Positions 18,761-57,390 of a stretch of DNA of 64,000 nucleotides are shown here, in pieces. Location of the stretch: the NCBI GenBank assembly GCA_025459125.1, contig JALORE010000001.1:1-64000 (forward strand), given 5' to 3'. The translations under genes were made by a program, and so were the position numbers. Every line of letters begins with the position of its first letter. The stretch's first letter is position 1. The notes under the pieces were generated by a model that saw only the letters and a program-made list of their open reading frames with translations, was not told the origin of the DNA and ran no database searches. This DNA comes from Planctomycetota bacterium (lineage in GTDB: Bacteria > Planctomycetota > Phycisphaerae > Sedimentisphaerales > Anaerobacaceae).

Positions 18761-18982
18761 TTAGCTGTCAACCTTTTTCGCAATGACCAGCCGACGGGCA
18801 TCGTCGGCGAGCGCCTTTGATAGCTCTGACCCTACCTGCAAGTCGATGGGCACGGGCTCGCCGCATTGGCGACAGATCACCTGTACCGCGCCCTTGTCGA
18901 TCAGCAGCATGGACGTGCGAATCTTAAGCTTTTCTCCCGCGTGGTAGACCACCATGTGCGAGCAGGATGGGCACCTGGTCAT
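18761..18982 (-). CDS. Small zinc-ribbon (Com-like) protein
   Basis: CPSC...CRQC pair in 73 aa; ATGA overlap. Confidence 0.55.
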   Translation of the reverse strand: MTRCPSCSHMVVYHAGEKLKIRTSMLLIDKGAVQVICRQCGEPVPIDLQVGSELSKALADDARRLVIAKKVDS

Positions 18983-28614: not shown

Positions 28615-28929
28615 CTATTCCACGTCCTGGTCGTGGATGAGATAGAGCTCCCCATCGGGAGAGCTGGTCATGTTCGAGTTGTACTTCGAGAAAGCATGCG
28701 CGTACTGGAAAGAGTAGGCCCGGCGGTCCAGCTCGGCCGGTGATATCCCCGCGTAATAGGGGGTGGCCGAGGGGTCGGTAAAGGGGCCCAGGTGAAACAG
28801 CTGGTCGGGCCCGAAGCCGTTGCGCTTGAGCTCGCTCTTGACGTGCCACCACCAGATGCCGAAGTTGCGGTAGTAGAGCGGCACCTTCTGCAGGATCGCC
28901 ACCACGTTCTGCGCTTGTTCCTTGGTCAT
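28615..28929 (-). CDS. Hypothetical protein
   Basis: 104 aa, ATGA overlap with the DarB-like gene. Confidence 0.5.
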   Translation of the reverse strand: MTKEQAQNVVAILQKVPLYYRNFGIWWWHVKSELKRNGFGPDQLFHLGPFTDPSATPYYAGISPAELDRRAYSFQYAHAFSKYNSNMTSSPDGELYLIHDQDVE

Positions 28930-31900
28930 GCCGAACGCCTTTCTTCCCAGGCCGATTCTGCCTCTTTTGCCACGGCGCTGAACAGCCCCTCAGAGCGACT
29001 GTAGCCATAGCCGCCGCCCCCGTAGTTCTGCCGTCCGACCTTGAGCAGCGGGTTCTCCCACTCGCGCCACGATGGTCCCTTGTTCGCCTCGGCCAGCGCC
29101 CGCACCAGATCCTGGCGATCCTTGCCCCAGGGGTAGACGATCTTGAGGCCGCCGATCTTGTCCGTTGGCGCGACCACGATGTCTCCCCCAGCATCTCGAA
29201 CCAGCATTTCCCGGCCACGACCGTGCTTTGACAGCCATTCCCGCACGGCCCCGTCCACCATGTCCTGGTTGGCCGCCAGCACGTCCGGTGAGATGTGGGT
29301 GATGGCTTCCAGCGGCGTGAGGTACGACACGTCGGCATTCTTTCCGAGCGCCTCGCGCAGCTCGTCGACCGCGGTGTACTTGCTGACGGTGTACCCGTGC
29401 TCGGCGATCTTGTCCACGTCGATGGTGTGGCTGTGGGGGTATCCCCAGCTGCGCACCGTGAGCTTTCGCTCACCAAGGTCGACCTTCTCAACCACCATCC
29501 GCCCGGGCTGGCCGTAGCCGGTGTCCTTCTCCTGAATCACCGTTCCCGCGCGAATGAGGCCGGCCGCCAGACGCCGGGCGTCTCCTTCTCCCGTGAGGTA
29601 GGTATTGACCGCCACCGGCGCGGTGTCCCCGGAGTTGAGCAGGGCCTTGATCTCCAGCGGCAGCAACTCGTTCCGAAGCAACTGCCGCTTGAGCCGACTG
29701 GACTCCTCGACCAGGCGGTCACGGGTCTCTCCCTCTCGCATCTTCCCCATGCGCTCGATCTTCCGCTGGTAGCTGTAGAACCCGTCCACCGCCAGCTGCG
29801 CTTGCCTGGTGTACCAGGCGCTCTCGGCGCTGGCCCGCTTTTCCTTGATCAGGCGCAGGGCCTCGTCGGGGTTGTCCGAAAGCATGGCCAGCATTTCCAC
29901 CTCGTCCAGCCCCTGGCCGTCCATGTCGTTGTCAATGTCATTAGCCCCACTCCGGAGCTTGTCGAGCCATCGTTCCTTGCCCATGAGCGTCGAATGGCGG
30001 AAGCCATCGAAGCTGCCTTTGGCGAGGTAGGTGTGGACGTTGACCTGCTCGGCCCGGTTACCCTGACGCACCCCGCGGCCATTGCGCTGGTGCAGCGTCC
30101 CGGGATCCCACGGCTGATCCAGATGGTGGATGTCCGTCGTCCCGGCCGCATGTTTCTTGCCCTGGAGGTTGACCCCCTCGCCCATGGTTCCGGTGTTTCC
30201 GATCACGACCTTGATTTCACCACGGTTGAAGCGGTCCCCCACTCGCTGGCGCGCCTCGGAGTCAGGCGCGACCTGGGCGTTGATGATGCCGATCTGGTCC
30301 TCGCGCAGCCCGCGCTCCATCAGCAGCTTTTTCAGACGCTCGTGGCTGGCGTTGTGGTCGCAGAAGATGATCTGCCCTCCGCGCTCGCGCACTCCCTTGG
30401 AAGCCTCATCCGCACAGGCCAGGTACTTTGGGCTCTCGGTCCAGCCGTCGGGGTACTCCTCGGGATCGTAGAGCGACAGATCCTGGGCAGCCTTTTTCAT
30501 CTGGTCCAGCATCCGGAACATCCCGCCCGGGTCCTTGCGGCTGTCCGCAGTCTGAGCTTTCGCCCGGAGGTCGAAATAGACAGCCTTCTGCGTGGGCGTC
30601 ATGTCGACCAGGTGCATCTCCTGCTTGGCGTCCGGGATCTTCAACCCAACGTCGGTGGCCGTCTGGAGCATCATGTACTTGTCCATGATCCCCTCAAGCT
30701 CCTTGAGGTTGGTGAACCCAACGACGCACTGAGCCTCCTCCAGATTGCCCGCGCCCTCGAAGTCATCGTGGAACTGGGTCTCGTCCTCGTCCTCCTCGTC
30801 TTCGCCCTTCTTCTTCGGGCCCCTGCCCGGGGGCGTGAGAATCAGCCGGTCTTCGAGCTTGCAGAAGCGGTCGATGAACTCTTCGCTGTTGCGCACGCCG
30901 ATGTCGATGAACGCCTGGGGGTCGATGTGCTGGAGCATGTTGAACACCTCCAGCGGAGAGTTTTTGGTCGGCGTCGCAGTCAGCAGGTACACCCCGTTCG
31001 ACGGGTCCTGCTCCCGGACATTGTGCGCCATGTGCTGCATCTTGCGGGCTTGCTTGGACTGGCCCGAGCCGCCAAGGAACTTGGGGTTCTTCCCGAACCT
31101 GGACCGCGCGGCGTACAAATTCTTGTAGCAGTTGTGGACCAGCACTCCCTCGGCAAAATAGGTGCGATGGTCATCTACTTCTAGGTTGAAAACCACACCG
31201 CCTGGGCACAGCCCTCCAAACGTTCCATCACCTGTCGGTTCGAGAACCTCAACACTCGCCACCCGCCTTGGCTCAAGAACCTGTCCTTCTTCTGGTCTTG
31301 GGCCCGCCGGATATGGGATCGATGCGATTCTCCGTCCACTTCCACGGCGATCATCAGCCCCGGATGAGCGATGTCGATCCGTCCCCGCTGGCGGTGCCAT
31401 TCCTGGACTCGCGTCAGGACCAGCATCTCCTTGCACCATTCGCATCGGGCCTTCATAGCTACACCTGTTTTTGTAGAGACTATCCCCTACAAGAACATCC
31501 CGAGCAAGAACGTATCCATCGGGCGTGAAGATCGGATGTGCTCCCGTGCAAATCACGGTTGTCCCATCGTCGAGCGTCAAGCGCCGCAAGCTGTCGGGAA
31601 CCTGAATTTGGACGTTGGCAACGCGAGCCATGACAACGCGGCCCGTGGCGTGATCGAATGCACTCACAAGATCCCCGCGGCGCAGCGTCTCGATTGGTCG
31701 GCCGTCGATCAGGGTGCCGGAAGGAAAGCAATGAGCCTCATCTGCGATCAGGGTGTCGACCCCCAGATCCTCCCAGAACACCATGTCCATCTGGTGCTGG
31801 AACTTCTGCTGGAGCTTGTCCTGGGCCCAGGACGCCTTGAGCTTCTCGATCCGCTTGTCGGCCGTCTGCTGCTGCTTCGAGCCCTCGACGATCTTGTCAA

Positions 31901-34900
31901 TGCGAGCGCCGCGCTGGTACCAGAAGTCCTCTTTCTCATAGCGTTCGATGGTGTCGTGCTTGAGCGGGATTCGCTCGAAAGCGGGCTTGGTGCAGACGAT
32001 CAGGTCATACTCGTTCTGCTTGACCGAGGCCAGCTTGCGGTTGCGCTCGGTATCATCGTCCGAGGCGGTCGACCAGCTGTTGGCCTCGACGTACTTGTCA
32101 AACGCTTCCCCGGATAGGCCCTGAGCCCGGGCTTCGGTCTCGGCCTTCTTTTTCGCCGCCCGTGACTGCGCGCGATGCTCGCCTATGACCAGCACGCGCG
32201 AGCCAGGAAACAGGGTCTCGATCTCTTCCTTCCAGTTGGTGGCGACGCTTTTCGGCACCACTACCATCGGCCGGCGGGCGAGCCCCTGCTGCTTGCGCAA
32301 ACGCGCGAGCAAAATCGCGATGAAGGTCTTTCCCAGGCCCACGTCCTGACCGAGGATCCCCCTGCCGGTCTCGGCCGCCCAACGGACAGCGGTGTTCTGG
32401 TAGTCGTGCGGCACCACGCCCGTGGCTATTCCCTCAAGCCCCAGGGGGTCGCCGCTGTACTCGCGCCTGAACTCGGCGTTGAACGTCCGGTTGTAGAGCT
32501 CCTCCAGTTTTCCCCGGAGGTCGCTGGCCTTGATCCACTCATTGAAGCCCTTTTCAACATGCTCCTCCACGTCCCGGCATTTCTCTTTCTTGAGCGAAAG
32601 CCGGTTCATGTACTTGAGCCAGTCGGTACCATCCGAGGAATGTCTGGCTACGTCTCCCGCGGCGTTCAGGACTTCGAGCGTGTAGACCCCCTGGTCATAG
32701 ACCAGACGCACTCGCTTGCCTTCCTCGCGCCATCCCAGGGCCTGCTTTTTCCCCTCGGGCGTGTTCAGCCAGCGGTTGAACCAGTCCAGGGGCATCCAGC
32801 CCATGACCCGCAGCTGGAGGGGGATGTCATCGATGGAGCGACGCCTGGTATCCAGCCGCTTCCGGATAAGGTCCACCTGTCGTTCTACCTGAGCCCGTTC
32901 AGATCCCTCCAACCCGGCCATACGGGTGGTCTCGCGGTCCAGCTTCTCGTAGAGGTTCCCCGTGAGGTAATCCTCCATGTGCTGGATCGCGCCGTCGGCC
33001 GTGCCATCGGTGGCGTAGTCGCCCGACTTGAGCAACCGCGAACGCGCGTCGTCTTCGCTTTCCCACCCTTCCCAGTTGTGCTGCAGATCCTCGAACGGGA
33101 CATACCCGCGGTTGCGGCGCGCGGTGTAGGCGGCTACCGACAAGAGGTCGGCTTTGTCCACTTCCGCGGCCTTGAGCGTCACGGCCGCGTCCTTCGAGAG
33201 CAGATCCGATAGCTCGCCGTTGGAATCGACGCAGGCCATGAAGTCGATCAGCGTCGGGGCGCTCTTGGAGAGCACGCCCAGGGCTCGATGAGAACCGGGG
33301 ATACCGTTCTCCTTCACCCACGCTCGCACCTTATCCGCCACCCGACGCCGAATTGCGCGGGACTTGTAGAACTCTCCCGCGTCGCGGGCGCGGATAAGCT
33401 CCTGAAGCTCAACCGCGATCTCGTGCGCCTGTTTGATTGCGGCGTCACCGCTCTTGGTGATTATCTGACTGACATCGTCCACCGACTCCATCAGCGTCCA
33501 CTTCGGCGGTTCGCCGATGTAGATGTAGCGTCTGCTGTCGATGGTCTGGGTGTTCCCCAGCGCCGGCGGCACGGCCGCCACGTCGATGTCCGCCTGGGCG
33601 GCCTGGAGCGAGACTTTCATCTGCTCGATCTCGCCCAGCTGATCGGCGGTGACTGGCTTGGCCGCGGGGTCGACGTACTTGCTGTCGATCTTGGCCTTGG
33701 TTAGGTCGCGCAGCGCCGCCGGGACCTTGTCCGCGTCTCCGATCACGGTCGCACGCCACCCGGTTTCGTCCGCGGTCAGGGCCTTGCCCAGAATCCGATC
33801 CGGATGCTTCTCGAAGTAGTCCCCGTCTACTAGCTGCTGATCCCAGCATCCCAGACCCTCCATCACCCCCTGCAGCTCCCCGCGGGCTTGGGAGTAGGCC
33901 AGGGCCCTCCCCGCCAGATCGTCGCGCTTGCGCACTACCAGCACGTCCGCGCCAATGCCACAGTGGACATGAGCGAAGATGTCGTTGGGCAGCCTGAAAG
34001 CGTCCAGTACCTCGGCCCGGGCGAGCAGGCGCTCGCGGAAGTCGCAGGCTCCTGGAGACCGGTTTCCCATCACCCCGCCATGGATCAGCAGCACCGCCAC
34101 ACCGCCGTCCTTCATGTGGTCGAGGCTGGTGTCGATGAAATACTGATCGGCGCTCTTGTACTCGGGCTTGTGCCGCGGGATGTCCCCGGTCCGGGTGCAG
34201 TAGGGGGGGTTGGCGATCACGGCATCGAACTGGGGTGGGGTGCCCATGCGCTCGATGGTGAACTGCTCGAACGCCTTGCTCTCTATCGTATGGCCCTTGT
34301 GCGCGTGGAGCACCTCGGCCACGGCCGCAGCCTGGTCGTCGAGCTCGACGCCCGTGACCTTGACCCCCTTGGGCGCGGTCTGCAGAAACACTCCGCTGCC
34401 GCACGATGGCTCAAGCACCGTCTGCACGTTCTGCTGGTAGGCCCCCATCACGTCCCACATGGCCTCGGCGATGTCCGTCCGGGTGTAGAACTGGTTTAGG
34501 TCACCGCTGATGCCGCCCTTGCCCGTGTAGCTCGCGACCTTCACCGCCTCGGCATCGGTCAACCCGCGGCCCTCGGCCCGGGCCTTCATCACGATCTTGA
34601 CCGCCTCGTCATTGGCTTCACGGCGCTGGCCCTTGGTCCGGTCCTTGGACATGGCCTCCGCGACCTGCTCCTCCTGTTTCTCCTGAGCCGGCTGGGGCGC
34701 GGGAACGGGCTTAGGCGCTTCCTCGGGGTCGCCCGGCTCGGGCGCGTGCTGGATTGCCTGCTTGTCGGGATACCAATACTCGTAGTGGTCCCCGTGCCGT
34801 CGGCGGTACCCGCCGTGCTTGCCGCGGGGGATCATCTCCCATCCCCCCCCGGGGGGGCGCGCGGCGCCGAACCCGAACATCCCCAGCTGACGTGGGTTGG

Positions 34901-36497
34901 CTGCCCGCCGGGCCTTTTCAAGGTCCAGGATCAGACGCGGTCCGTGGAGGTCAAGCACCAGGCGCATGCCGCCGTGGAGCATGCTCTTGATCACCGTCGG
35001 AATCTGGTCTTCTCCCTTGGAAGCCTTCTCACGATGCTTTCGCTCCACTTCTACTTCCTTGGCGATGATCTCCGATGCTGGATGTTTCTTCTTGTCGACA
35101 TTGACCCAATGCCCGTCCTGGGTGTGGTTCCACCACTGGCGGTAGGCCATCGGCTGCCGATCCTTCCAGCTGATGATCATCCGGCGATCCCGCCCCTGGG
35201 TGAAGATCGTGTCGGCGTGCTTGTCGGTCCTTTCGACCACACGCCAGTGCGCTGGGATGTTCAGTGCCTCGCGCAGTCCCTGGGCGGTAGTCGGAATCTC
35301 TCCGTGCAGTTTTTCGGCCTGGTAGAGCGCCTCCACCGCCGCCGCGAACCTGTCCTTCATCTCCTCCGGACTTCCCGACATCCTCGAAGCAAAAGCATCC
35401 ACAACCGCCCCGCGGGCCATGCCAACGTCCTCGTGCTTGAGCTTGCCGGCCTCCACCATCGTCCTCACTCGGGCAAGCCGATGCTCGCGGATGTGCTGAC
35501 GTCCCTTGTCCGACACGACCACCATCACATTGCCCGGACCAAAGTGAGCCCGCCCGGTGGTGCCCCTCTCGGTGACGCGCAGGTACCCCTGGTCGATCAG
35601 CCGCGCGTACTTCCGCTCCTCCACGTTGACCTGTCCCCAGTTGGCAAAGTCGAACAGCGTCTTCTTCTCTTCGTCAGTCAAGCTCTCCGGAACTGCGGCG
35701 GGCGGCTCTCGCAGCTGACGGGCTCGATCAACAGCGGCAGCGTAGGATGAGAACCCGCCTTCCACCTTCCCCCAGTTTCCTCCGGGCGGCCTGGCATCCA
35801 GTCGGAAGCTCTTGGGCGCGCCCGAGCCTGGGATGTGCTCGCTCTGCACCCGGTAGAGCGTCGGCCCTTTTTCTCCAAGCATCATCTGCTGGCCGCTATG
35901 GCCGCCGCCGCGAGGCTTGACCGGGGCGCCAATGGCGCGGTGGACCTCCACCTGTTCTTCGTAGGTCGTGGCGGTGTAGCGGGGCTTGGAAGTCGGCCGG
36001 ATCTTGTTCTTGGGCCCCTTGTCCGTGTAGGTCGTGACCGACTCACCCACGGGCACGTACTCGAACACCTGGCCACCGGGCGCCATCTCCCGGTCCTCCA
36101 GCGTGGCCGCCGCGAGCTCTTTGGGATTGACCCACTGGACGATCTGGTAACCGTGAGGCGCAAGGTCAGAGAACTTGCTCACCGCCCGATGCGTCCGCTT
36201 GAGCTCCGCTCGCGGGATCGCCGCCGGAGTCGGTGGCCCCGCTGGCGGTGCGGGAGGCGGATTCGACTCCTGCACCACAACCGGTTCCTTGGGCGCCGCC
36301 GACCCGGATCCGGCATCCCCTGGGTGCGGGACGCTGGTCGTTCCGGTATCGAAATACCAGTAGATGTACCCCGCCCCATGGCGCTTGTGGTAGCCACCGC
36401 GCTTCGATCCGGGAATGGGAGAGAAACCAGCCGGTGCCTTTGCTCGGCCGAACAGACTGAGTTGCTCGGCCTTGATCAGATCCAGCAACAGACGCAT
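28926..36497 (-). CDS. DarB-like giant antirestriction/polyvalent protein: N6-adenine DNA methyltransferase + SNF2 helicase, interrupted by an intein
   Basis: Trimmed to MRLLLDLIKAEQLSLFG (TGATG overlap at 36495-36499); FYTRTDIAEAMWDVM...VLEPSCGSGVFLQ...DAVIANPPY (MTase); GQDVGLGKTF, ADEAH, NGRGVRQGN (SNF2 helicase). Confidence 0.85.
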   Translation of the reverse strand: MRLLLDLIKAEQLSLFGRAKAPAGFSPIPGSKRGGYHKRHGAGYIYWYFDTGTTSVPHPGDAGSGSAAPKEPVVVQESNPPPAPPAGPPTPAAIPRAELKRTHRAVSKFSDLAPHGYQIVQWVNPKELAAATLEDREMAPGGQVFEYVPVGESVTTYTDKGPKNKIRPTSKPRYTATTYEEQVEVHRAIGAPVKPRGGGHSGQQMMLGEKGPTLYRVQSEHIPGSGAPKSFRLDARPPGGNWGKVEGGFSSYAAAVDRARQLREPPAAVPESLTDEEKKTLFDFANWGQVNVEERKYARLIDQGYLRVTERGTTGRAHFGPGNVMVVVSDKGRQHIREHRLARVRTMVEAGKLKHEDVGMARGAVVDAFASRMSGSPEEMKDRFAAAVEALYQAEKLHGEIPTTAQGLREALNIPAHWRVVERTDKHADTIFTQGRDRRMIISWKDRQPMAYRQWWNHTQDGHWVNVDKKKHPASEIIAKEVEVERKHREKASKGEDQIPTVIKSMLHGGMRLVLDLHGPRLILDLEKARRAANPRQLGMFGFGAARPPGGGWEMIPRGKHGGYRRRHGDHYEYWYPDKQAIQHAPEPGDPEEAPKPVPAPQPAQEKQEEQVAEAMSKDRTKGQRREANDEAVKIVMKARAEGRGLTDAEAVKVASYTGKGGISGDLNQFYTRTDIAEAMWDVMGAYQQNVQTVLEPSCGSGVFLQTAPKGVKVTGVELDDQAAAVAEVLHAHKGHTIESKAFEQFTIERMGTPPQFDAVIANPPYCTRTGDIPRHKPEYKSADQYFIDTSLDHMKDGGVAVLLIHGGVMGNRSPGACDFRERLLARAEVLDAFRLPNDIFAHVHCGIGADVLVVRKRDDLAGRALAYSQARGELQGVMEGLGCWDQQLVDGDYFEKHPDRILGKALTADETGWRATVIGDADKVPAALRDLTKAKIDSKYVDPAAKPVTADQLGEIEQMKVSLQAAQADIDVAAVPPALGNTQTIDSRRYIYIGEPPKWTLMESVDDVSQIITKSGDAAIKQAHEIAVELQELIRARDAGEFYKSRAIRRRVADKVRAWVKENGIPGSHRALGVLSKSAPTLIDFMACVDSNGELSDLLSKDAAVTLKAAEVDKADLLSVAAYTARRNRGYVPFEDLQHNWEGWESEDDARSRLLKSGDYATDGTADGAIQHMEDYLTGNLYEKLDRETTRMAGLEGSERAQVERQVDLIRKRLDTRRRSIDDIPLQLRVMGWMPLDWFNRWLNTPEGKKQALGWREEGKRVRLVYDQGVYTLEVLNAAGDVARHSSDGTDWLKYMNRLSLKKEKCRDVEEHVEKGFNEWIKASDLRGKLEELYNRTFNAEFRREYSGDPLGLEGIATGVVPHDYQNTAVRWAAETGRGILGQDVGLGKTFIAILLARLRKQQGLARRPMVVVPKSVATNWKEEIETLFPGSRVLVIGEHRAQSRAAKKKAETEARAQGLSGEAFDKYVEANSWSTASDDDTERNRKLASVKQNEYDLIVCTKPAFERIPLKHDTIERYEKEDFWYQRGARIDKIVEGSKQQQTADKRIEKLKASWAQDKLQQKFQHQMDMVFWEDLGVDTLIADEAHCFPSGTLIDGRPIETLRRGDLVSAFDHATGRVVMARVANVQIQVPDSLRRLTLDDGTTVICTGAHPIFTPDGYVLARDVLVGDSLYKNRCSYEGPMRMVQGDAGPDASPGMAPPAGTDRHRSSGADDRRGSGRRIASIPYPAGPRPEEGQVLEPRRVASVEVLEPTGDGTFGGLCPGGVVFNLEVDDHRTYFAEGVLVHNCYKNLYAARSRFGKNPKFLGGSGQSKQARKMQHMAHNVREQDPSNGVYLLTATPTKNSPLEVFNMLQHIDPQAFIDIGVRNSEEFIDRFCKLEDRLILTPPGRGPKKKGEDEEDEDETQFHDDFEGAGNLEEAQCVVGFTNLKELEGIMDKYMMLQTATDVGLKIPDAKQEMHLVDMTPTQKAVYFDLRAKAQTADSRKDPGGMFRMLDQMKKAAQDLSLYDPEEYPDGWTESPKYLACADEASKGVRERGGQIIFCDHNASHERLKKLLMERGLREDQIGIINAQVAPDSEARQRVGDRFNRGEIKVVIGNTGTMGEGVNLQGKKHAAGTTDIHHLDQPWDPGTLHQRNGRGVRQGNRAEQVNVHTYLAKGSFDGFRHSTLMGKERWLDKLRSGANDIDNDMDGQGLDEVEMLAMLSDNPDEALRLIKEKRASAESAWYTRQAQLAVDGFYSYQRKIERMGKMREGETRDRLVEESSRLKRQLLRNELLPLEIKALLNSGDTAPVAVNTYLTGEGDARRLAAGLIRAGTVIQEKDTGYGQPGRMVVEKVDLGERKLTVRSWGYPHSHTIDVDKIAEHGYTVSKYTAVDELREALGKNADVSYLTPLEAITHISPDVLAANQDMVDGAVREWLSKHGRGREMLVRDAGGDIVVAPTDKIGGLKIVYPWGKDRQDLVRALAEANKGPSWREWENPLLKVGRQNYGGGGYGYSRSEGLFSAVAKEAESAWEERRSA
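31131..31730 (-). other. Intein (200 aa) inserted after the DEAH motif of the SNF2 helicase; extein junctions DEAH/CFPSGTL...VLVHN/CYKN
   Basis: Block A CFPSGTLIDGRPIETLRRGDLV, block B TVICTGAHPIFTPDGYVLARDVLVGD, block F/G FNLEVDDHRTYFAEGVLVHN followed by C; exactly 600 nt in frame. Confidence 0.92.
31181..31456 (-). CDS. Nested out-of-frame (+1) DUF559/Vsr-like endonuclease ORF inside the intein
   Basis: MKARCEWCKEMLVLTRVQEWHRQRGRIDIAHPGLMIAVEVDGESHRSHIRRAQDQKKDRFLSQGGWRVLRFSNRQVMERLEGCAQAVWFST; VEVDGxxH...D..K...L...GWRVLRFSN..V signature; AGGTG 6 nt upstream of ATG. Confidence 0.8.
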   Translation of the reverse strand: MKARCEWCKEMLVLTRVQEWHRQRGRIDIAHPGLMIAVEVDGESHRSHIRRAQDQKKDRFLSQGGWRVLRFSNRQVMERLEGCAQAVWFST

Positions 36498-39340
36498 CAC
36501 TGGCGAACCTCCCCGGCCGTCATCGCGACCAGCGCCTTGACGATCCCGCGCACGGACTTTTCGTTCACGGCCGCCAGACCCGCGGCCAGCTGCGGATCGG
36601 CAAGCGCGGCCTGCTGGGCATCGTCCAGCACCCGTCGCACCACCTGATCCAGGCGCACCGCCGGCGCCCGGCCGGCCAGGGTCGCCCGATGCACCTCGGC
36701 CTGCACCAGCCATCGGGCGTGGTGGATGGCACGGTTCAGCAGGGCGTTCCCTCCAACGGCCTTGATCAAGGTCGGGCGCGAACGGTCGGACGCCGCGAAC
36801 AGCGCCCCCTGGTCTCGGTCGGCCTCTGCCTGGAGCTTGTCCAATCGCTTGCGCTCGCGCTCGGCGTCCTTCTCGGCCCGGGCAGCTTCCTTTGCCGCGG
36901 TTTCCCGTTCTCGCTTCTCTGCCGCCCGCGCGGGAGACATACCGAACTCGATGTCCAGCGCCTCGGCCGGCGTCACGCGAGTCCGCCCGAACCCGGCCAG
37001 CACTCCCACGCCCCCCCGGGCCCCCTCGGAGAACGCATGATCCTCATGGTCCTGGACAGAGCGCAGGGCAAAGCCGCGGAAAGCCGCCGGCATCTTGGTC
37101 GTGCCGACGTGTTCGCGGATGATGGTCAGGAGGGCCTTGGCCACGGGGTCCGCGTGGATGCGCTTGGACAGGTCCAGCCCCGAGCTGCCGATCTCCGTCT
37201 GCTGCAGGAACTCCCGATGCGCGACCTTCGCGCCCTTGTCCGACGTGGCCCGGATGTGCAGGTCGGCCTCGACGGCAAGCTTCAAGGACTCGGCGATGGG
37301 CCAGCCATGCTGCTCGGCAACCACCAGGCTGGGAGTTGATAGCGCGAGCGACTCGCGGAGCGTGGGATTCATGCGCTCCAGGATATCCGCGTCGGGCACC
37401 AGCCTCGCGGCCATCACCCGCTCGACCCGCCGGCGACCGTCCTCGTTCAGTAGCGTCCCCCTGCCACCGTTTTCGATGTACTGGGCCTTGTTGTAGTCGT
37501 CGATGATTCCGGCCTGACGCAGTGACCTGACGAAGTCCTCGCTCGCCTTGGAGTACAGGAACTCCGAGAGCGTCTGGTCTGGCTCGATTGCTCCGACCAG
37601 CGCGTCCGTGACGTGCGAGGTTACGAACTGCGCGACCGCCACCTCCTCGCTGCGCGGGTCAAGCCCCTGGGTCAGCGCCTCGTTCATCCGCCGGCCCAAG
37701 AGCTTGAGCTTGGCGTTCTTCTCCCCGGGGTCCTTGACCGTCATCCTCCTGACAATCATCGGTTGCTTCATCGCCCGCACGTCCGCGGCGCTCACGCCGT
37801 ACTTCCGGGCGTTGGCCACGAGGTACGACCGGAGCTTCTCGGCGCTGTCGGGGTACTCGCGGTAGGAGCGTTGGATCGCCATCGCCCGGCCGTTGCCGCC
37901 AAGAACCACGCGGTCCTGGGTGATGATCGGCGGACCGTTCACGGCATCGGGGTTGGTGTTGATCATGATCGCCGGGTCCAGGTTCTTGGCGATCCGGTCC
38001 ACCTTCTCCTGCTCGGCCGTGATCGCGTGGTAGCGGCGCTCCTGGACGTTTTCGGGATAGGCCGGATTCTGGGGGAAGTGCCCGAGGGCCTCGGGCTTGT
38101 GGCTGGCGATCAGATCCGAGGCGTCCATCAGCACGTACTCGGCCTGGACGTTGTCGATTCCCTTGCCGTCAGCAGAACGCAGCTTGACCGAGGTTTCCTC
38201 CCCCTTCACTTCCCGCTGGCGGCCGGCCTCGCGCTTGCGCTTGCTCACAAGGCAGAAGCCGTTGGGCTGCTTCATCACCGCCCACTCGCGGTCCCCGCCC
38301 ATGGCCGCCGCCTGGGCCTCCAGCTCGGCCGCGTCGGGCGAGAACCCTTCGATGTTGTCGTACTCGCCGCGGGCCAAATCGGCCATGCTGATCCGCGCCA
38401 GCGGCGCCGCCTGGGCCTTGCCCTCGGGGGCCTTCTCCGCGGTCGCCTGGCGGTGGTAGCTCTGGACCATCCGGTGGAGGTCTCGCTCGTGGACGTGCGC
38501 CTCTCGACCACTCTCGTCGTGCTTGACGTGGACGATCCCGCGTTTCTTGTCGTGCGCGAGCACCTCGAAGTGCCCTTCTTTCCCCTCGTGCTTGACTTTG
38601 AACTTCGCGCCCGTCGCCAGATCCTCGGACGACGTGAGCCGGCCCTTGGACGGCAAGCGATAGAAGTAGCGCCACCGCGGCCTGGGCTTGCCGGTGGGGA
38701 CGCGCTTCAGGTACTTGTGCCCTGCGGCCTTGCCCACTAGCTCCTCGCCGATGGCTTCTCGGGCCTCCAAGTCATCACCCTCGGCGACCATCCACACCAA
38801 CTCCGGCGGCACAGGCTCGGACCGGAGACGGAGCGCCAGGCGCTCGGCCCGGAGGGAGGGCCCGGCGTAGGCCCCGGGGATGTCCCAGGTAAGCAACTCG
38901 CCCTCGGTCGACTTCTGCACCATCACCCGGTCGACACGTCCACCCCACCGATCCGGCCGCGGTGGCGCGCTCGACCGGTAGAGCTCAACGCACCGCCTGG
39001 CGATCTCGGACCGCAGCTGCAGGTCCCGGGGCGCCATCCCGCGCAGCCCGGTGAGCAGGTGCCGACGGAACGTGATCGGGTCTGGCGCTGTCACCCAATC
39101 CCTAACAGCCTCGCCCAGCGCCTGCTCGGCAGCGATGGACAGGCCCAGCCCTCGACTCACGTCATCCGGAGAGCGAACGGGAAAGCCTCCGGGCAAGATC
39201 GCCTCGGGCTCGCGAGACACCTCGGTCAGCCGGGTAAGCGCCGACTGATCGATCATCACCGGCCGGCGCAAGCCGAAGATCAATCGCGGTCCCTGGCCAG
39301 CGGTTCCTGCGCCCAGGGCGCCCGGCAATGATCCGATCAT
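36497..39340 (-). CDS. DdrB-like polyvalent protein with ParB-like (ddrB-ParB) domain
   Basis: Trimmed to MIGSLPGALGAGTAGQGPRL; YVLMDASDLIASHKPEALGHFPQNPAYPENVQERRYH...INTNPDAVNGPPIITQDRVVLGGNGRAMAIQRSY typical ddrB-ParB; KYLKRVPTGKPRPRWRYFYRLP motif. Confidence 0.8.
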   Translation of the reverse strand: MIGSLPGALGAGTAGQGPRLIFGLRRPVMIDQSALTRLTEVSREPEAILPGGFPVRSPDDVSRGLGLSIAAEQALGEAVRDWVTAPDPITFRRHLLTGLRGMAPRDLQLRSEIARRCVELYRSSAPPRPDRWGGRVDRVMVQKSTEGELLTWDIPGAYAGPSLRAERLALRLRSEPVPPELVWMVAEGDDLEAREAIGEELVGKAAGHKYLKRVPTGKPRPRWRYFYRLPSKGRLTSSEDLATGAKFKVKHEGKEGHFEVLAHDKKRGIVHVKHDESGREAHVHERDLHRMVQSYHRQATAEKAPEGKAQAAPLARISMADLARGEYDNIEGFSPDAAELEAQAAAMGGDREWAVMKQPNGFCLVSKRKREAGRQREVKGEETSVKLRSADGKGIDNVQAEYVLMDASDLIASHKPEALGHFPQNPAYPENVQERRYHAITAEQEKVDRIAKNLDPAIMINTNPDAVNGPPIITQDRVVLGGNGRAMAIQRSYREYPDSAEKLRSYLVANARKYGVSAADVRAMKQPMIVRRMTVKDPGEKNAKLKLLGRRMNEALTQGLDPRSEEVAVAQFVTSHVTDALVGAIEPDQTLSEFLYSKASEDFVRSLRQAGIIDDYNKAQYIENGGRGTLLNEDGRRRVERVMAARLVPDADILERMNPTLRESLALSTPSLVVAEQHGWPIAESLKLAVEADLHIRATSDKGAKVAHREFLQQTEIGSSGLDLSKRIHADPVAKALLTIIREHVGTTKMPAAFRGFALRSVQDHEDHAFSEGARGGVGVLAGFGRTRVTPAEALDIEFGMSPARAAEKRERETAAKEAARAEKDAERERKRLDKLQAEADRDQGALFAASDRSRPTLIKAVGGNALLNRAIHHARWLVQAEVHRATLAGRAPAVRLDQVVRRVLDDAQQAALADPQLAAGLAAVNEKSVRGIVKALVAMTAGEVRQ

Positions 39341-48427: not shown

Positions 48428-49846
48428 TCAACCGGCCTGTAGCCGCAGTCGCGCCAGATGGACGTAATTGGGATCTATCTCGACCCCTACGCAATCCAGG
48501 CCCAGGCGCCGGCAGACGGCCAGGGTCGAGCCCACGCCCGCGAACGGATCCAGCACCAGCGCCCCGGGTGGCGCGTGTCGCCGAAGCAGCCGCTCAAGCA
48601 ACCACTCGGGCTTCTGCGTCGGATGGTCGAGCCGCTCGTTCCCGCCGCACACTGGCCCCTCGATCAGGTTGTGCGCCTCGGGCGCGCCGGCGTTCTCCCA
48701 GGGCATGAAGTGGTAGCGGTCGCCGCGGGTTGCCCAGCAGACGGCCTCGACCGACGACAGGTAGACGTTCCGGTGGGCCGTACCGGGGTTGGTCTTCTTC
48801 CAGATGATCGCCCCGCGCCACGTTAGCCCGATGTTCTCGCAGATGAACTTGTACTCGCCGATGGCCTCCAGCGGAGCAAACACCAGAAGCTGACCGCCGT
48901 CGACCAACAGTGGCGCCGCCTGGACAACCCACCCCACGTCGAGCTTGTCCCACGCGCCGAAGTTCGAGGAGATGTTCCCGCGCGCAACGTGCGCGACCAG
49001 GCTCTGCCGCTGGCCGTATGGAGGGTCGGTCAAGATCAGCTGGAAGGTCCCGTTCTCGGTCCGCCCAAAGAACTGGCGGTTGTCCTCCATGTGCAGAATC
49101 CGGCGCGCCTCGGGCCCGAGTTCCTCGACCTTTTCCTGGCGCTTCGCCTCGGCCTCCTTGGCCCGGGCTTCGAGCTTGGACCGCTTGCGCTCGACGCGCA
49201 CCTTCCGCAGCACCTTGCGAACGGCCTGGTTGCGCTTGCTGGCGGTGTCTGATTTCTCAATCTCTGCCAAGTCCCCCCGCGGCAGATTCGCTACCTCGAT
49301 GCACTCCTGCACGAACCGCTCGCCCTTGCCAATCTCGCGGGCGATGATCTTCGTCGCTCTCTCCGGCGCGGGATCAGGATTCGCACCCTTCGCAAAGTCT
49401 GCTTTGGTGCGGACGGACTTGCCCTTGCCCGAACCGCGCCCTCCGGTCGCCCCGACTTTCGTCCCGGGGTACAGCTGCTCATGCAGCACCTTCTGTCGCT
49501 GGAACCCGCGGCCCAGTTCGAGCACGTCGAAGTCCTTGCGCGCGACGTTTTCGGCCAGCTGCGCGTGCAGGGCAGACAGCTCGGTCTCGGCCGAGACTTC
49601 CACCGCCAGGACCGGCCGCCCCAGCCGCTGGCAGGCGGTCATCCGCCGAACGCCGGCAACCACCTCCCACTCGCCTTCGATTTTGCGCACGGCGATGGGT
49701 TGGATCTGGCCCTGCTTGGCAATGCTCGAACAGAGGGCGTTGATGTCACCAGCGTCAGACCGGGCCCGCCATCCCACCTTGATCGTCCCCGGATCCAGAG
49801 ATAGCACCGGGTTCTTGTTCGTCGTCTTCTCGGTCGTCATCATCAT
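48428..49846 (-). CDS. ParB-like N-domain fused to a DNA methyltransferase
   Basis: IKVGWRARSDAGDINALCSSIAKQGQIQPIAVRKIEGEWEVVAGVRRMTACQRLG (ParB); ILTDPPYGQ...ERLDHPTQKPEWLLERLLRRHAPPGALVLDPFAGVGSTL (N4/N6 MTase). Confidence 0.85.
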   Translation of the reverse strand: MMMTTEKTTNKNPVLSLDPGTIKVGWRARSDAGDINALCSSIAKQGQIQPIAVRKIEGEWEVVAGVRRMTACQRLGRPVLAVEVSAETELSALHAQLAENVARKDFDVLELGRGFQRQKVLHEQLYPGTKVGATGGRGSGKGKSVRTKADFAKGANPDPAPERATKIIAREIGKGERFVQECIEVANLPRGDLAEIEKSDTASKRNQAVRKVLRKVRVERKRSKLEARAKEAEAKRQEKVEELGPEARRILHMEDNRQFFGRTENGTFQLILTDPPYGQRQSLVAHVARGNISSNFGAWDKLDVGWVVQAAPLLVDGGQLLVFAPLEAIGEYKFICENIGLTWRGAIIWKKTNPGTAHRNVYLSSVEAVCWATRGDRYHFMPWENAGAPEAHNLIEGPVCGGNERLDHPTQKPEWLLERLLRRHAPPGALVLDPFAGVGSTLAVCRRLGLDCVGVEIDPNYVHLARLRLQAG

Positions 49847-51708: not shown

Positions 51709-52099
51709 GTTCTACCCCCTCGGTCATCAGACGCTTGGCCTCGGCCACATGCAACGGCCGCAGCTGGACGTAGTGGACGTTCGATGTCACCAGCAACACC
51801 GGCATGCGCAAGTTGGCCTCACTCATCCGGCGCAGGTCCTCGCCCATGGCGTCGGGCAACCCCATTGGCACGACACAGATCGCCAGCTCGGGCGACAGGT
51901 CCAGCTGGTCACCCTGGGCCCCCACGCGGAGGTTGTTCAAATGGATCCTGTGGCCACACTGCTGGCACTTGATCGAAGCCGCGTAGCGAACGCCGCGCAC
52001 CAGGATGTTGTGCTCCCCCACCTCGGCGATCCGCTTGGCCACCCCATCGAACAACTGGGTCATCTTGTACCAGGTGGGCTTTCGCAGGGCATCTTTCAT
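51644..52099 (-). CDS. Hypothetical protein with CxxC
   Basis: 151 aa; CQQCGHRIHL. Confidence 0.5.
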   Translation of the reverse strand: MKDALRKPTWYKMTQLFDGVAKRIAEVGEHNILVRGVRYAASIKCQQCGHRIHLNNLRVGAQGDQLDLSPELAICVVPMGLPDAMGEDLRRMSEANLRMPVLLVTSNVHYVQLRPLHVAEAKRLMTEGVEHAEQREAGQGSQTPGGGPALA

Positions 52100-53715: not shown

Positions 53716-54306
53716 TCACTCTAAGATGGGGGGCAAATCGTCACGTCCAGACGGCCGCCCGAACGCCGCGGCTGCGAGCTCGGAACAGGTGGCGATCATC
53801 CGTCGCAACAGGGCCTTGTCCAGAACAACGCGCGCCCAGAAAGCGGCCTTCTTCGGATCGGCTCGGTGAAGCATAACCGTAGCGGCCTCATCCGGCGGGG
53901 GCTTGCCACTGTGGCACGCCTCCTGGAGAGCAGCGAAGATGCTGGCATGCCCGGGATGGTAGAAGTCCTGCCGGGAAAGAGCGCCGACTAGATATTCCGC
54001 CGCGTCAACAGGGCCGTTGGCGATGATCGAAAGAACGCTTTTCTCGGCTTCGAGGTTGTGCGGCATGGCGCGCCCCTCGCGCTTGTCATGGCGCGCCTTA
54101 CACGCTGGCTCCTGACTCTTTTGGGTCTTCCCCGCGTACTCTCCGCACCAGTCGTCTGACATCACATCTGGCCAATATGAATCAAGGACCCTTTCGACAG
54201 GGTTGCACACCACTTGTGGCGCCCGCCTCCGACACTCGGAAATCTCTTCTTCCTCGTCGTGCTGATTGAAATAGAAATACCGGCAATCTTCGCATTTCAT
54301 GGTCAT
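53716..54306 (-). CDS. DnaB N-terminal-domain-only protein fused to N-terminal Cys domain
   Basis: HNLEAEKSVLSIIANGPVDAAEYLVGALSRQDFYHPGHASIFAALQEACHSGKPPPDEAATVMLHR...LLRRMIATCSELAAAAF is DnaB-N-like; no RecA/Walker motifs follow. Confidence 0.7.
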   Translation of the reverse strand: MTMKCEDCRYFYFNQHDEEEEISECRRRAPQVVCNPVERVLDSYWPDVMSDDWCGEYAGKTQKSQEPACKARHDKREGRAMPHNLEAEKSVLSIIANGPVDAAEYLVGALSRQDFYHPGHASIFAALQEACHSGKPPPDEAATVMLHRADPKKAAFWARVVLDKALLRRMIATCSELAAAAFGRPSGRDDLPPILE

Positions 54307-54466: not shown

Positions 54467-55464
54467 TCCGGCTGGCTCGTTTTGGTGCCCCACATCTCGT
54501 CGTCGATCCATGCGCGCAGTTCCTTGTTCGCCACCAACAGCCCCGAGCCCTTCGGCCGCTTCACCCGGGCCAGCCCGTCGAAGTCGCCGGCCATCAGTCC
54601 CAGCACCGGAACCGCGCTCCACTTCTCGATGGTCGCGAGCTTGTTCGCCCAGTGGCTCGCCCAACAGAGCTCCTCCAGCCCGACGGCCACGGCGATCCAG
54701 CGGATGTCCGACCAGGGTGACGCCTTGAGCTTACCCTCCCAGCCGGTGCCCTCGACCGGGATATCCGGCTTCTGCGGGAGCTTCCCGCGCAAGAGCGCAA
54801 CCCCGGCGTCGTCGGCCAGCATCAGCCCCTTGTCCGGGAAGCCCGGGCAGCGCATGCCGCTGGTCAAACCGGCAATCACCCCGTCCTCGGGACGCCACAG
54901 GCGGCTCACGAGCTCGCGCAGCCCCTGGGTGGAAGAATCCCGACCGCGCACGAGGTCCAGAATCTGGTGGCTGATGGGATCCAGCCCGAACAGCTGGCCA
55001 TCCTGGCGCATTAGCGTGGGCCAGCCGGTCTCACCCACGTTCTCCTGCCGCTCGGACAGCGGCGTCACGTCCATGACCATCCCGTCGATCACCGCCAGCT
55101 TCCGGCTGTGATCGCCCTCGGGAACCGCGGGGTCAACCCCCACGATCAGCTCCACATCCCGCGGATCAACCCGCTCGGGCGGCCCCTCCTGGGTCAAGCG
55201 CGTGATGCTCTGCCCGTACACCTGGCGGTCGCGAGCCTCGGTTGCTGGCGTCTGAATCTGCCGGCGGTATCCCACGTCCTCCGGCCCATTGGGCCGCGGT
55301 TCCACCTCGTCCGGACCGGCGACCTTGCCCCGCCGGTCGAACAGCAGACGCTGGCCTTTCAGAGACGCTCGCTCAACCTCGTCGCGCTTCTTCACCGCCC
55401 TGCTCATGGACTCCTCAAACGGGTTCTGAGGGGAGTTGAGCATCTCCTCGAACGTCCTGGTCAT
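54460..55464 (-). CDS. Hypothetical protein of replication module
   Basis: 334 aa; ATGA overlap with DnaC-like gene. Confidence 0.5.
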   Translation of the reverse strand: MTRTFEEMLNSPQNPFEESMSRAVKKRDEVERASLKGQRLLFDRRGKVAGPDEVEPRPNGPEDVGYRRQIQTPATEARDRQVYGQSITRLTQEGPPERVDPRDVELIVGVDPAVPEGDHSRKLAVIDGMVMDVTPLSERQENVGETGWPTLMRQDGQLFGLDPISHQILDLVRGRDSSTQGLRELVSRLWRPEDGVIAGLTSGMRCPGFPDKGLMLADDAGVALLRGKLPQKPDIPVEGTGWEGKLKASPWSDIRWIAVAVGLEELCWASHWANKLATIEKWSAVPVLGLMAGDFDGLARVKRPKGSGLLVANKELRAWIDDEMWGTKTSQPEW

Positions 55465-56165
55465 CGGATGGTCTCCCTCGGCACGACCAGCGCCGCGCCC
55501 TCAGCCTGGATGCGAGACATCAGGCGCGCGTCGTACCTCTGCCCGATGTCCTCGGGCCCGAGGTTGGTGGTGCAGATCGTCAGCCGCCCGGCATCCCACC
55601 GGCGCAACAACAGCTCCTCGACGTTGGTCGTGTCTTGCTCGCGCTCTCGGCCGAGGTCGTCCAGAACCAGGGCGACACAGCGGGCCTCGGAACAGTCTCG
55701 CTGTTCGCGAGCGGGAATCTGGCAGAAGTCCCAGGCCGTGACGAACAGCCCCCCGGCTCCGATGTCCGGCTGGTCATCGATCACCAGCTGGTCGCGCCGA
55801 CGATGGCGCTCGGCCAGGGCCCAGCAGGCGGCGACGGTCTTGCCGGTCCCCGGGGGTCCGGCGATCATCACCAGGCGCTTGCCATCGACCACCGCCTGGT
55901 TGGTCGACGAAGTCACCAAGCGCTTGCGGTCGATTCGTTGGATCGTCTCCAGGATGGCCGGGGGGATCCGCGAGCCGCTGGTCAGCCACGCCTGTCGCCG
56001 GGCTTCCGCCTGCCGCAACTGGAAGTCGCGCCACTCGCGCGCTCGCTCGGCGGCGGTCTCGGGGTCGACCGCGGCCATGGCGCGATTGGCAATCTCCTTC
56101 AGCCGCGACCCGATGAGCTCTCCGGCCTTGACCGGCCCGCTGTCGATGGCCAGCACCTTGCGCAT
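55461..56165 (-). CDS. DnaC/IstB-like AAA+ ATPase (helicase loader)
   Basis: VMIAGPPGTGKTVAACWAL (Walker A), CVALVLDDLGRE (Walker B), TICTTNLGPEDIGQRYDARLMSRI. Confidence 0.8.
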   Translation of the reverse strand: MRKVLAIDSGPVKAGELIGSRLKEIANRAMAAVDPETAAERAREWRDFQLRQAEARRQAWLTSGSRIPPAILETIQRIDRKRLVTSSTNQAVVDGKRLVMIAGPPGTGKTVAACWALAERHRRRDQLVIDDQPDIGAGGLFVTAWDFCQIPAREQRDCSEARCVALVLDDLGREREQDTTNVEELLLRRWDAGRLTICTTNLGPEDIGQRYDARLMSRIQAEGAALVVPRETIR

Positions 56166-56203
56166 GCGCAGCAGCTCCTCCTGAGCCCGTTCGATGATCT
56201 CGC

Positions 56204-57079
56204 TTATAGCCGGATCGCTTTTCGTTCGATGGCCTCGATCATCTCTTTGGTGGTCTCCACCTTGTGCACACCGTTGGAATTGCCGGACTTTTGTCTCTTG
56301 AACTGGCGCTCGATCTTGTCGAAAAACTCCCAGAATCGCGCGGCCCCGGTCACCACCTCCGACCAATGGCCTCCGTCCTTCCACCGGGGGCTTGACATGA
56401 TCGCCCAGCGGGCAACCTCCTGAGCGTAGGTGGCGGACGAAAGCAGGTCCGTCTTTCGTCGGGCCGCCAGTCGCTCGATTCCGGCATCCGAGGTTGTCAG
56501 GTCCAGAGCCTCGGGTTCTCCCGCTATCCCTAGAAGATTGTTGAAAGAAGAAAGAAAAAGGTGGGTGTGTGCGCGCGGTGGTGAAGCGCTTGTAACGTTA
56601 CAGTCTGTTTCGGTAACGGGATGTAACGCTACCGTGTAACTTTCTGTAACGTTACCCTCTCCTCTCCTCTCCTCTCCTCTTATCTTATCTTCTCTTATCT
56701 GATCTCCTCTGGAGGGGAGTGCAGAGGGGAGGTTTTTTTTCGCCGCCCGGTGTCGCCGCACGCGCTCGGCCGAGGATGGGATTCTTGTCTGATGGTCCAT
56801 CCAATCATGCACCAGAAGGCGGCCGTCTTCGGTGCGGTCTATCAGACCGACTTCGATTGCTCGCTCCATGGCCGGCGGCAGCTGTTCCATGTGCTCCGGT
56901 GGCCACAGAGCCGCTCGCGCGATGATGTGGGGTTTCCACATTCTGGTTACGTCTCCGGTTTCCGGGCTGTGGCGCATCGACAGCCGCCATATTGTCTCGA
57001 CGACATTGGCCGCCCAAAACCCTGCCTCTTGAAATTTGAAGTGATCTCTGTGGTTTATGTCATCCTTGAGCCAGGTCAT
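56204..57079 (-). CDS. Replication initiator-like (lambda O/DnaD-like) protein
   Basis: MTWLKDDINHRDHFKFQEAGFWAANVVETIWRLS...VGLIDRTEDGRLLVHDWMDHQ...; adjacent to the DnaC-like loader; internal repeats. Confidence 0.6.
   Translation of the reverse strand: MTWLKDDINHRDHFKFQEAGFWAANVVETIWRLSMRHSPETGDVTRMWKPHIIARAALWPPEHMEQLPPAMERAIEVGLIDRTEDGRLLVHDWMDHQTRIPSSAERVRRHRAAKKNLPSALPSRGDQIREDKIRGEERRGEGNVTESYTVALHPVTETDCNVTSASPPRAHTHLFLSSFNNLLGIAGEPEALDLTTSDAGIERLAARRKTDLLSSATYAQEVARWAIMSSPRWKDGGHWSEVVTGAARFWEFFDKIERQFKRQKSGNSNGVHKVETTKEMIEAIERKAIRL
56591..56710. other. Candidate replication origin inside the initiator gene (iterons + pyrimidine/AT-rich tract)
   Basis: TGTAACGTTACA, TGTAACGCTACC, TGTAACtttc, TGTAACGTTACC repeats then (TCTCC)n and TTATC repeats. 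Confidence 0.5.
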
Positions 57080-57257
57080 GGGCCTCTTCCTGATCTTTCT
57101 CGAACTCCGCAAGGGCTCGCTCAAGCAGACAGAGGGCCAGGGAATGGCGGGTCATCCTGACGGGTGTTCCGCCAGGCAAACGGGCCGTGTTTTTGATGCG
57201 GTCCAGCCTCTCAAGCACGGTTGACGACACGCGCAGGTGAAGATGCCCCTCGGACAC
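57060..57257 (-). CDS. Ribbon-helix-helix-like DNA-binding protein
   Basis: GTG start with AAGGAG SD; HLHLRVSSTVLERLDRIKNTA...RMTRHSLALCLLERALAEFEKD. Confidence 0.6.
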   Translation of the reverse strand: MSEGHLHLRVSSTVLERLDRIKNTARLPGGTPVRMTRHSLALCLLERALAEFEKDQEEAHDLAQG

Positions 57258-57284: not shown

Positions 57285-57315
57285 ACAATAGGCACAATAA
57301 ACTCACGATGTCAAC
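57285..57315 (-). promoter_or_regulatory. Putative promoter TTGACA - 19 bp - TATTGT
   Basis: Rev-comp of 57285-57315 upstream of the RHH-like gene. Confidence 0.5.
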
Positions 57316-57350
57316 CCCTGCAGAACCCAGTGATGCGGGCCTGCCATTTG

Positions 57351-57390
57351 GTGACGCACGGTGACAAACCGTTACGCACGGTGACGCAGC
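57351..57390. repeat. Four tandem 10-bp repeats GGTGACGCAC GGTGACAAAC CGTTACGCAC GGTGACGCAG
   Basis: Read directly from the sequence. Confidence 0.85.

Follow-up and report, generated by a model that had tools for sequence, protein, structure and literature searches.

A putative replication origin inside the initiator gene of an uncultured 98.7-kb tailed phage

Does a cluster of short repeats inside a replication initiator gene of a soil-metagenome phage mark the place where replication of that phage begins? A sequence-only reading of the locus had described a lambda-like origin embedded in the gene. We analyzed the repeats, the DNA around them, the encoded protein and the corresponding region of related phages. 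Taken together, the rank of the repeats within the genome, a duplex stability that is the lowest of the contig, the occurrence of repeats in several codon phases, the predicted linker and the same layout in relatives support an origin within the initiator gene. We conclude that the segment at about 56490-56715 is, with high probability, the replication origin of a circular tailed phage of ~98.7 kb, embedded in the gene of its own initiator.

The phage and its initiator operon

The window, i.e., the whole stretch of 64,000 bases analyzed, comprises bases 1-64000 of contig C436 (98,765 bp) in a 7.6-Mb assembly. The ends of the contig share 99 identical overlapping bases; it is therefore most likely a circular soil-metagenome phage molecule of about 98,666 bp. 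Genes for a major head protein, a minor head protein and baseplate J indicate a tailed phage, probably with a contractile tail. When IMG/VR was searched for close relatives with a single protein, a circularly permuted, near-identical copy (UViG_3300037461_000409, 98,779 bp) was found and no close relative beyond it. Over the 12.9 kb compared, the two copies differ by one 3-bp indel at 51722 and the origin segment is identical; with a copy so similar and its indel outside the origin, the pair carries no conservation signal for the origin. A search of 60 relatives of the host assembly did not find the initiator in any of them. GC skew had been proposed as a check of the origin, but it is uninformative, since all major genes of the contig lie on the minus strand and the skew has no switch along it. 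An Rfam search of 53-60 kb returned no match. Elsewhere on the minus strand, a 2595-aa protein (28926-36713) has methyltransferase, helicase and DarB-like antirestriction matches, and a 996-aa ORF (18979-21969) has a minor head protein match followed further along by Mom-like DNA modification profiles.

The genes and sites of the initiator operon are as follows.

55461-56207, minus strand: DnaC-like AAA+ helicase loader with P-loop GPPGTGKT (PHROG 50, E 4e-17)
56204-57079, minus strand: initiator gene, 291 aa; predicted winged-helix N-domain (about residues 8-100), disordered linker (123-196) and helical C-terminal part
57060-57257, minus strand: small ORF of 65 aa between the promoter-like site and the initiator gene, with no convincing family match
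57285-57314, minus strand: sigma-70-like promoter TTGACA-18-TATTGT, a consensus match only, reading into the initiator operon
57350-57388, no strand assigned: second array (GGTGACGCAC)x3.9 with GTKAC core and 10-bp period; candidate operator or auxiliary origin array

The product of the 56204-57079 gene matched PHROG 9474 (replication initiation protein) with an E value of 4e-8 and, more weakly, PHROG 3926 (E 2e-4) and, below threshold, Pfam Phage_rep_org_N. K15, G42 and H91-D92-W93 are invariant across 22 sequences, and the HDW motif ends the N-domain. AlphaFold2, run with 21 viral relatives, predicted a confident helical domain with a two-strand wing at residues 8-100 (pLDDT mostly above 90), disorder at residues 123-196 (pLDDT below 50) and a C-terminal helical part of low to moderate confidence. 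The disordered linker corresponds to nucleotides 56492-56713 and the repeats to residues 142-164. A PDB profile search with the N-domain family yielded chance matches only. Foldseek searches of the PDB gave weak matches, to winged-helix proteins among others, and none reached E <= 0.001; in a viral library, replication initiation and replisome organiser phage proteins were among the best matches, a suggestive result (E 2e-3 at best).

The loader gene adjoins the initiator gene on its downstream side, the two ends overlapping, just as had been claimed. The search for a DnaB motor domain (DnaB_C) gave one match in the assembly, on another contig, and none on the phage contig; the loader thus presumably serves the host helicase. 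A separate 196-aa protein (53716-54306, minus strand) has a DnaB-type N-terminal domain only (Pfam DnaB, E 1e-9) and a Cys-containing N terminus. It may be an adaptor or decoy for the host helicase, loader or primase.

Repeats and unstable DNA within the initiator gene

The features in and beside the candidate origin are as follows.

56591-56656, no strand assigned: putative iteron cluster, five GTAAC starts and two palindromic GTTAC halves
56657-56712, no strand assigned: pyrimidine (coding-strand purine) tract (TCTCC)n-TTATC..., holding the least stable 30 bp of the contig; a probable DNA-unwinding element
56530-56562, no strand assigned: second A+T-rich purine tract on the opposite flank of the iterons, ranking second for instability among the 30-bp windows of the contig (56530)
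56691-56740, plus strand: antisense-strand hairpin with T8 after it, within the initiator gene; terminator-like by eye

All of the repeat strings reported earlier were present at their positions (TGTAACGTTACA at 56591-56602, GGTAAC at 56612, TGTAACGCTACC at 56622-56633, TGTAAC at 56635 and TGTAACGTTACC at 56645-56656), inside the coding sequence of the minus-strand 56204-57079 ORF. Successive starts are 21, 10, 13 and 10 bp apart. The cluster is followed directly by the (TCTCC)n and TTATC/TTCTC tract (tandem arrays at 56656-56680 and 56678-56705), a G-rich stretch and T8, also as described. Chance does not account for the cluster: the contig (98,765 bp) has 45 GTAAC/GTTAC sites, 7 of which lie between 56592 and 56655, within 65 bp, and both of its copies of GTAACGTTAC fall inside the cluster. 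When every short-word cluster was ranked in 120-bp windows across the whole contig, 56591-56656 came first at both k=5 and k=6 (-log10 P of 13.1 and 13.6). In 4.5 kb of phage lambda, a scan of this type ranked the annotated ori iterons first, and in Myxococcus phage Mx8 it returned a cluster within the coding sequence of the initiator.

Nearest-neighbour duplex stability was computed over all 98,765 bp in windows of 30, 60, 100 and 200 bp. At every size, the least stable window of the contig lies at this segment (56679, 56637, 56598 and 56524, respectively). In strand asymmetry, too, the tract at 56657 stands out, ranking second among all 40-bp stretches of the contig. Nowhere else in the contig does a top repeat cluster coincide with top instability in these scans. 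The adjacent plus-strand hairpin has a predicted RNA folding energy of -21.1 kcal/mol (z -1.65 vs shuffles) and was not called by a terminator scan; beside the origin, the hairpin and its T8 could stop antisense transcription that crosses it.

Repeats within a gene may also be a chance product of the codons of a low-complexity linker, that is, peptide repeats with no function in the DNA. The predicted disorder of the linker fits this explanation. However, the repeats of the window occupy all three codon phases and both orientations, so they are no peptide repeat and the selection is on the DNA.

The same layout in related phages

We collected relatives regardless of repeats: 20 prophage or contig loci found with PHROG 9474 in 296 genomes of the phylum, 38 from an N-domain alignment scan of viral contigs and 13 annotated phages from a protein search. 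After near-duplicates and members with no clear N-domain were dropped, 50 loci remained, the window included. In 36 of these, the strongest repeat cluster within 3 kb falls 0-420 nt past the winged-helix codons, vs 4.7 expected (binomial P 3e-26), a zone that was set after inspection of the first prophage set; the loci of viral contigs and annotated phages, 33 in all, were inspected only later and gave a count of 22 vs about 2.4 expected. The top cluster lies outside the zone in the other 14 loci. The repeat words vary from phage to phage (TCCGGACA, AGCAATGC, CGGGAA, ATTCGCGA, GTGCGCAC, etc.), and GTAAC cores recur in two relatives (L007 and L010). The most purine-asymmetric 40 bp falls in the zone in 22/50 loci vs 4.7 expected. 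Low stability there is weakly general: 11/50 loci vs 4.7 expected at 60 bp, whereas with windows of 100 or 200 bp the result across the 50 loci was not significant. A crude scan found a P-loop ORF directly after the initiator gene in 13 of 47 loci, and we do not claim loader adjacency as a family trait. Members of PHROG 9474/3926 with the same N-domain family include Paenibacillus phage Harrison, Faecalibacterium FP_Lagaffe, Pseudomonas phiPSA1 and Microcystis and Synechococcus phages. As in the phage studied here, most members tested have their strongest local repeat cluster in the linker region, and the iteron words differ between phages; the fetched records carry no origin feature in their annotation tables.

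Repeat words in the zone are often 11 nt apart: this distance gives a peak of 65 pairs, from 30 loci, where control DNA of those loci predicts 6.0. Further peaks lie at 22 (41 pairs, 5.4 predicted from control DNA), 33, 44 and 55. For distances 11, 22, 44 and 55 combined, 147 pairs were counted vs 18.9 +/- 4.5 in codon shuffles (maximum 33 in 500 shuffles). Taken singly, 24 of the 50 loci reach p 0.05 for the exact lattice. The window's own repeats, spaced 10/13/10/21, are off an exact 11-bp lattice (p 0.31) and close to helical phase (R 0.91 at 11 bp, five sites). We found no title or abstract describing an 11-bp lattice in this initiator family in the open-licence literature, a collection that is incomplete, and its novelty is unproven.

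An 11-nt period crosses all codon phases and is therefore a signal in the DNA. Codon repeats cannot yield it, and it is far stronger than in the codon shuffles. Peaks at 6, 12, 18 and 24 nt, in turn, reflect dipeptide runs (VP, SP or TS, as in VPVP), which inflate the repeat count in some relatives and were not counted as evidence. Hence an origin of the repeats in linker codons alone appears very improbable, and selection on the DNA remains the preferred explanation.

These observations suggest a rule for the PHROG 9474 type, to which we assign even chances of being right: in a winged-helix initiator gene, the codons of the DNA-binding domain are directly followed by head-to-tail binding words, arranged in an 11-bp (one-turn) lattice, and by a strand-asymmetric purine tract, with words specific to each phage. 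If the rule is true, each helical turn would take one initiator protomer, the protomers being stacked along a single face of the DNA, and binding domain and origin would travel and co-evolve as one cassette. For many uncultured phages with an initiator of this family, it is probably possible to locate the origin from sequence, immediately past the winged-helix codons. In each, the DNA-binding domain would be linked to its cognate repeat words, and many such pairs could make a recognition code testable.

The second array, at 57350-57388, ranks second among the GTNAC arrays of the contig. It starts some 36 bp upstream of the site at 57314-57285 (minus strand); a search of 1.6 kb gave no other promoter-like site. 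The in-gene word is enriched upstream of the gene as well in 10 of 42 loci, the window included (empirical p <= 0.05), an outcome that is suggestive given coarse, overlapping controls. In phage nd4 and Roseburia phage Shimadzu (L070 and L071), the word ACGACC clusters around the initiator start, some 300 nt upstream from the HDW codons; such a placement would suit an initiator that also governs the expression of its own gene. The second array probably serves initiator autoregulation of the operon or as a second binding region, a proposal weaker than our main claim.

Such an array raises the question of whether all of the repeats are operators, bound by a repressor or by the initiator acting as a transcription regulator only, with replication starting elsewhere, e.g., at the 57350-57388 array. 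TGTAACGTTACA is palindromic, like many operators, and an array with the same core does lie directly upstream of the promoter-like site. The main array, however, is in mid-gene, about 600 nt downstream of that site, and the DNA on its flanks is the least stable in the contig. Many phages have this layout at the same place in the gene, built from unrelated words. We consider the operator explanation unlikely. Even less probable, in our judgment, is a partition (parS-like) or packaging site. The contig does encode a ParB-like domain fused to a DNA methyltransferase (48428-49846, minus strand), and the palindrome could be a parS; but this gene is distant and methyltransferase-fused, whereas the repeats lie in the initiator gene beside the loader, adjoin the least stable DNA and share their position with relatives.

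Proposed mechanism and known systems

With the in-gene segment as the origin, the winged-helix domains of the initiator would bind the GTAAC-core sites, roughly one helical turn apart on one face of the DNA. The assembled complex would melt the adjoining A+T-rich purine/pyrimidine tracts, and the DnaC-like loader would then place the host DnaB helicase. Transcription from the promoter-like site at 57314-57285 would pass through the origin and may aid its opening, while the second GTKAC array just upstream of that site probably allows the initiator to regulate its own operon or provides a second binding region. We infer binding, melting and helicase loading from the anatomy of the locus and by comparison with lambda, SPP1 and pSK41. 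The segment offers a testable candidate origin for this uncultured 98.7-kb phage.

Lambda (gene O), SPP1 (gene 38) and the RepA_N plasmids are established cases of an origin embedded in the initiator gene. In lambda, iterons and an AT-rich unwinding region lie in the middle of gene O, and the loader gene P is directly downstream (PMC7466680), the layout seen here. Four iterons of 18 bp are annotated in the lambda record, their starts separated by 20, 24 and 23 bp. The cores of the window, spaced 21/10/13/10, do not follow this pattern of 18-bp iterons about 20-24 bp apart: they are short, mostly about 10-13 bp apart, have purine/pyrimidine tracts on both sides and are accompanied by a DnaC-like loader (PHROG 50). 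The initiator profile showed no similarity to lambda O (hhalign probability 0.04), nor did the protein match PHROG 391 (O-like). "Lambda-like," the term used in the sequence-only reading, is thus apt for the layout and not for kinship.

Bacillus phage SPP1 carries oriL, with direct repeats and an AT-rich DUE, in gene 38, which encodes the replisome organiser gp38; it has a gp39 loader, a DnaB-type helicase of its own (gp40) and oriR elsewhere (PMC6316719). The likeness in layout extends to repeats and AT-rich DUE in the initiator gene, the loader gene and a second repeat region. In contrast to oriR, ~13 kb off in SPP1, the second array here is ~700 bp off in the operon leader, and unlike SPP1 with its gp40, this phage contig has no DnaB-type helicase that we could find.

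In the Rep protein of the RepA_N plasmid pSK41, an N-terminal winged helix and a separate C-terminal domain are joined by a central linker that is encoded by the origin and dispensable as protein, the Rep boxes being central in rep (PMC5703833). The phage initiator resembles it in having a predicted N-terminal winged-helix domain, origin DNA that would encode the central linker and a separate C-terminal part. It differs in that a Pfam search gave no RepA_N match at E up to 1 and the family profile no convincing PDB chain, and in that a phage with its own loader gene is concerned. By analogy with these three systems, we propose that the phage probably works as lambda, SPP1 and the RepA_N plasmids do.
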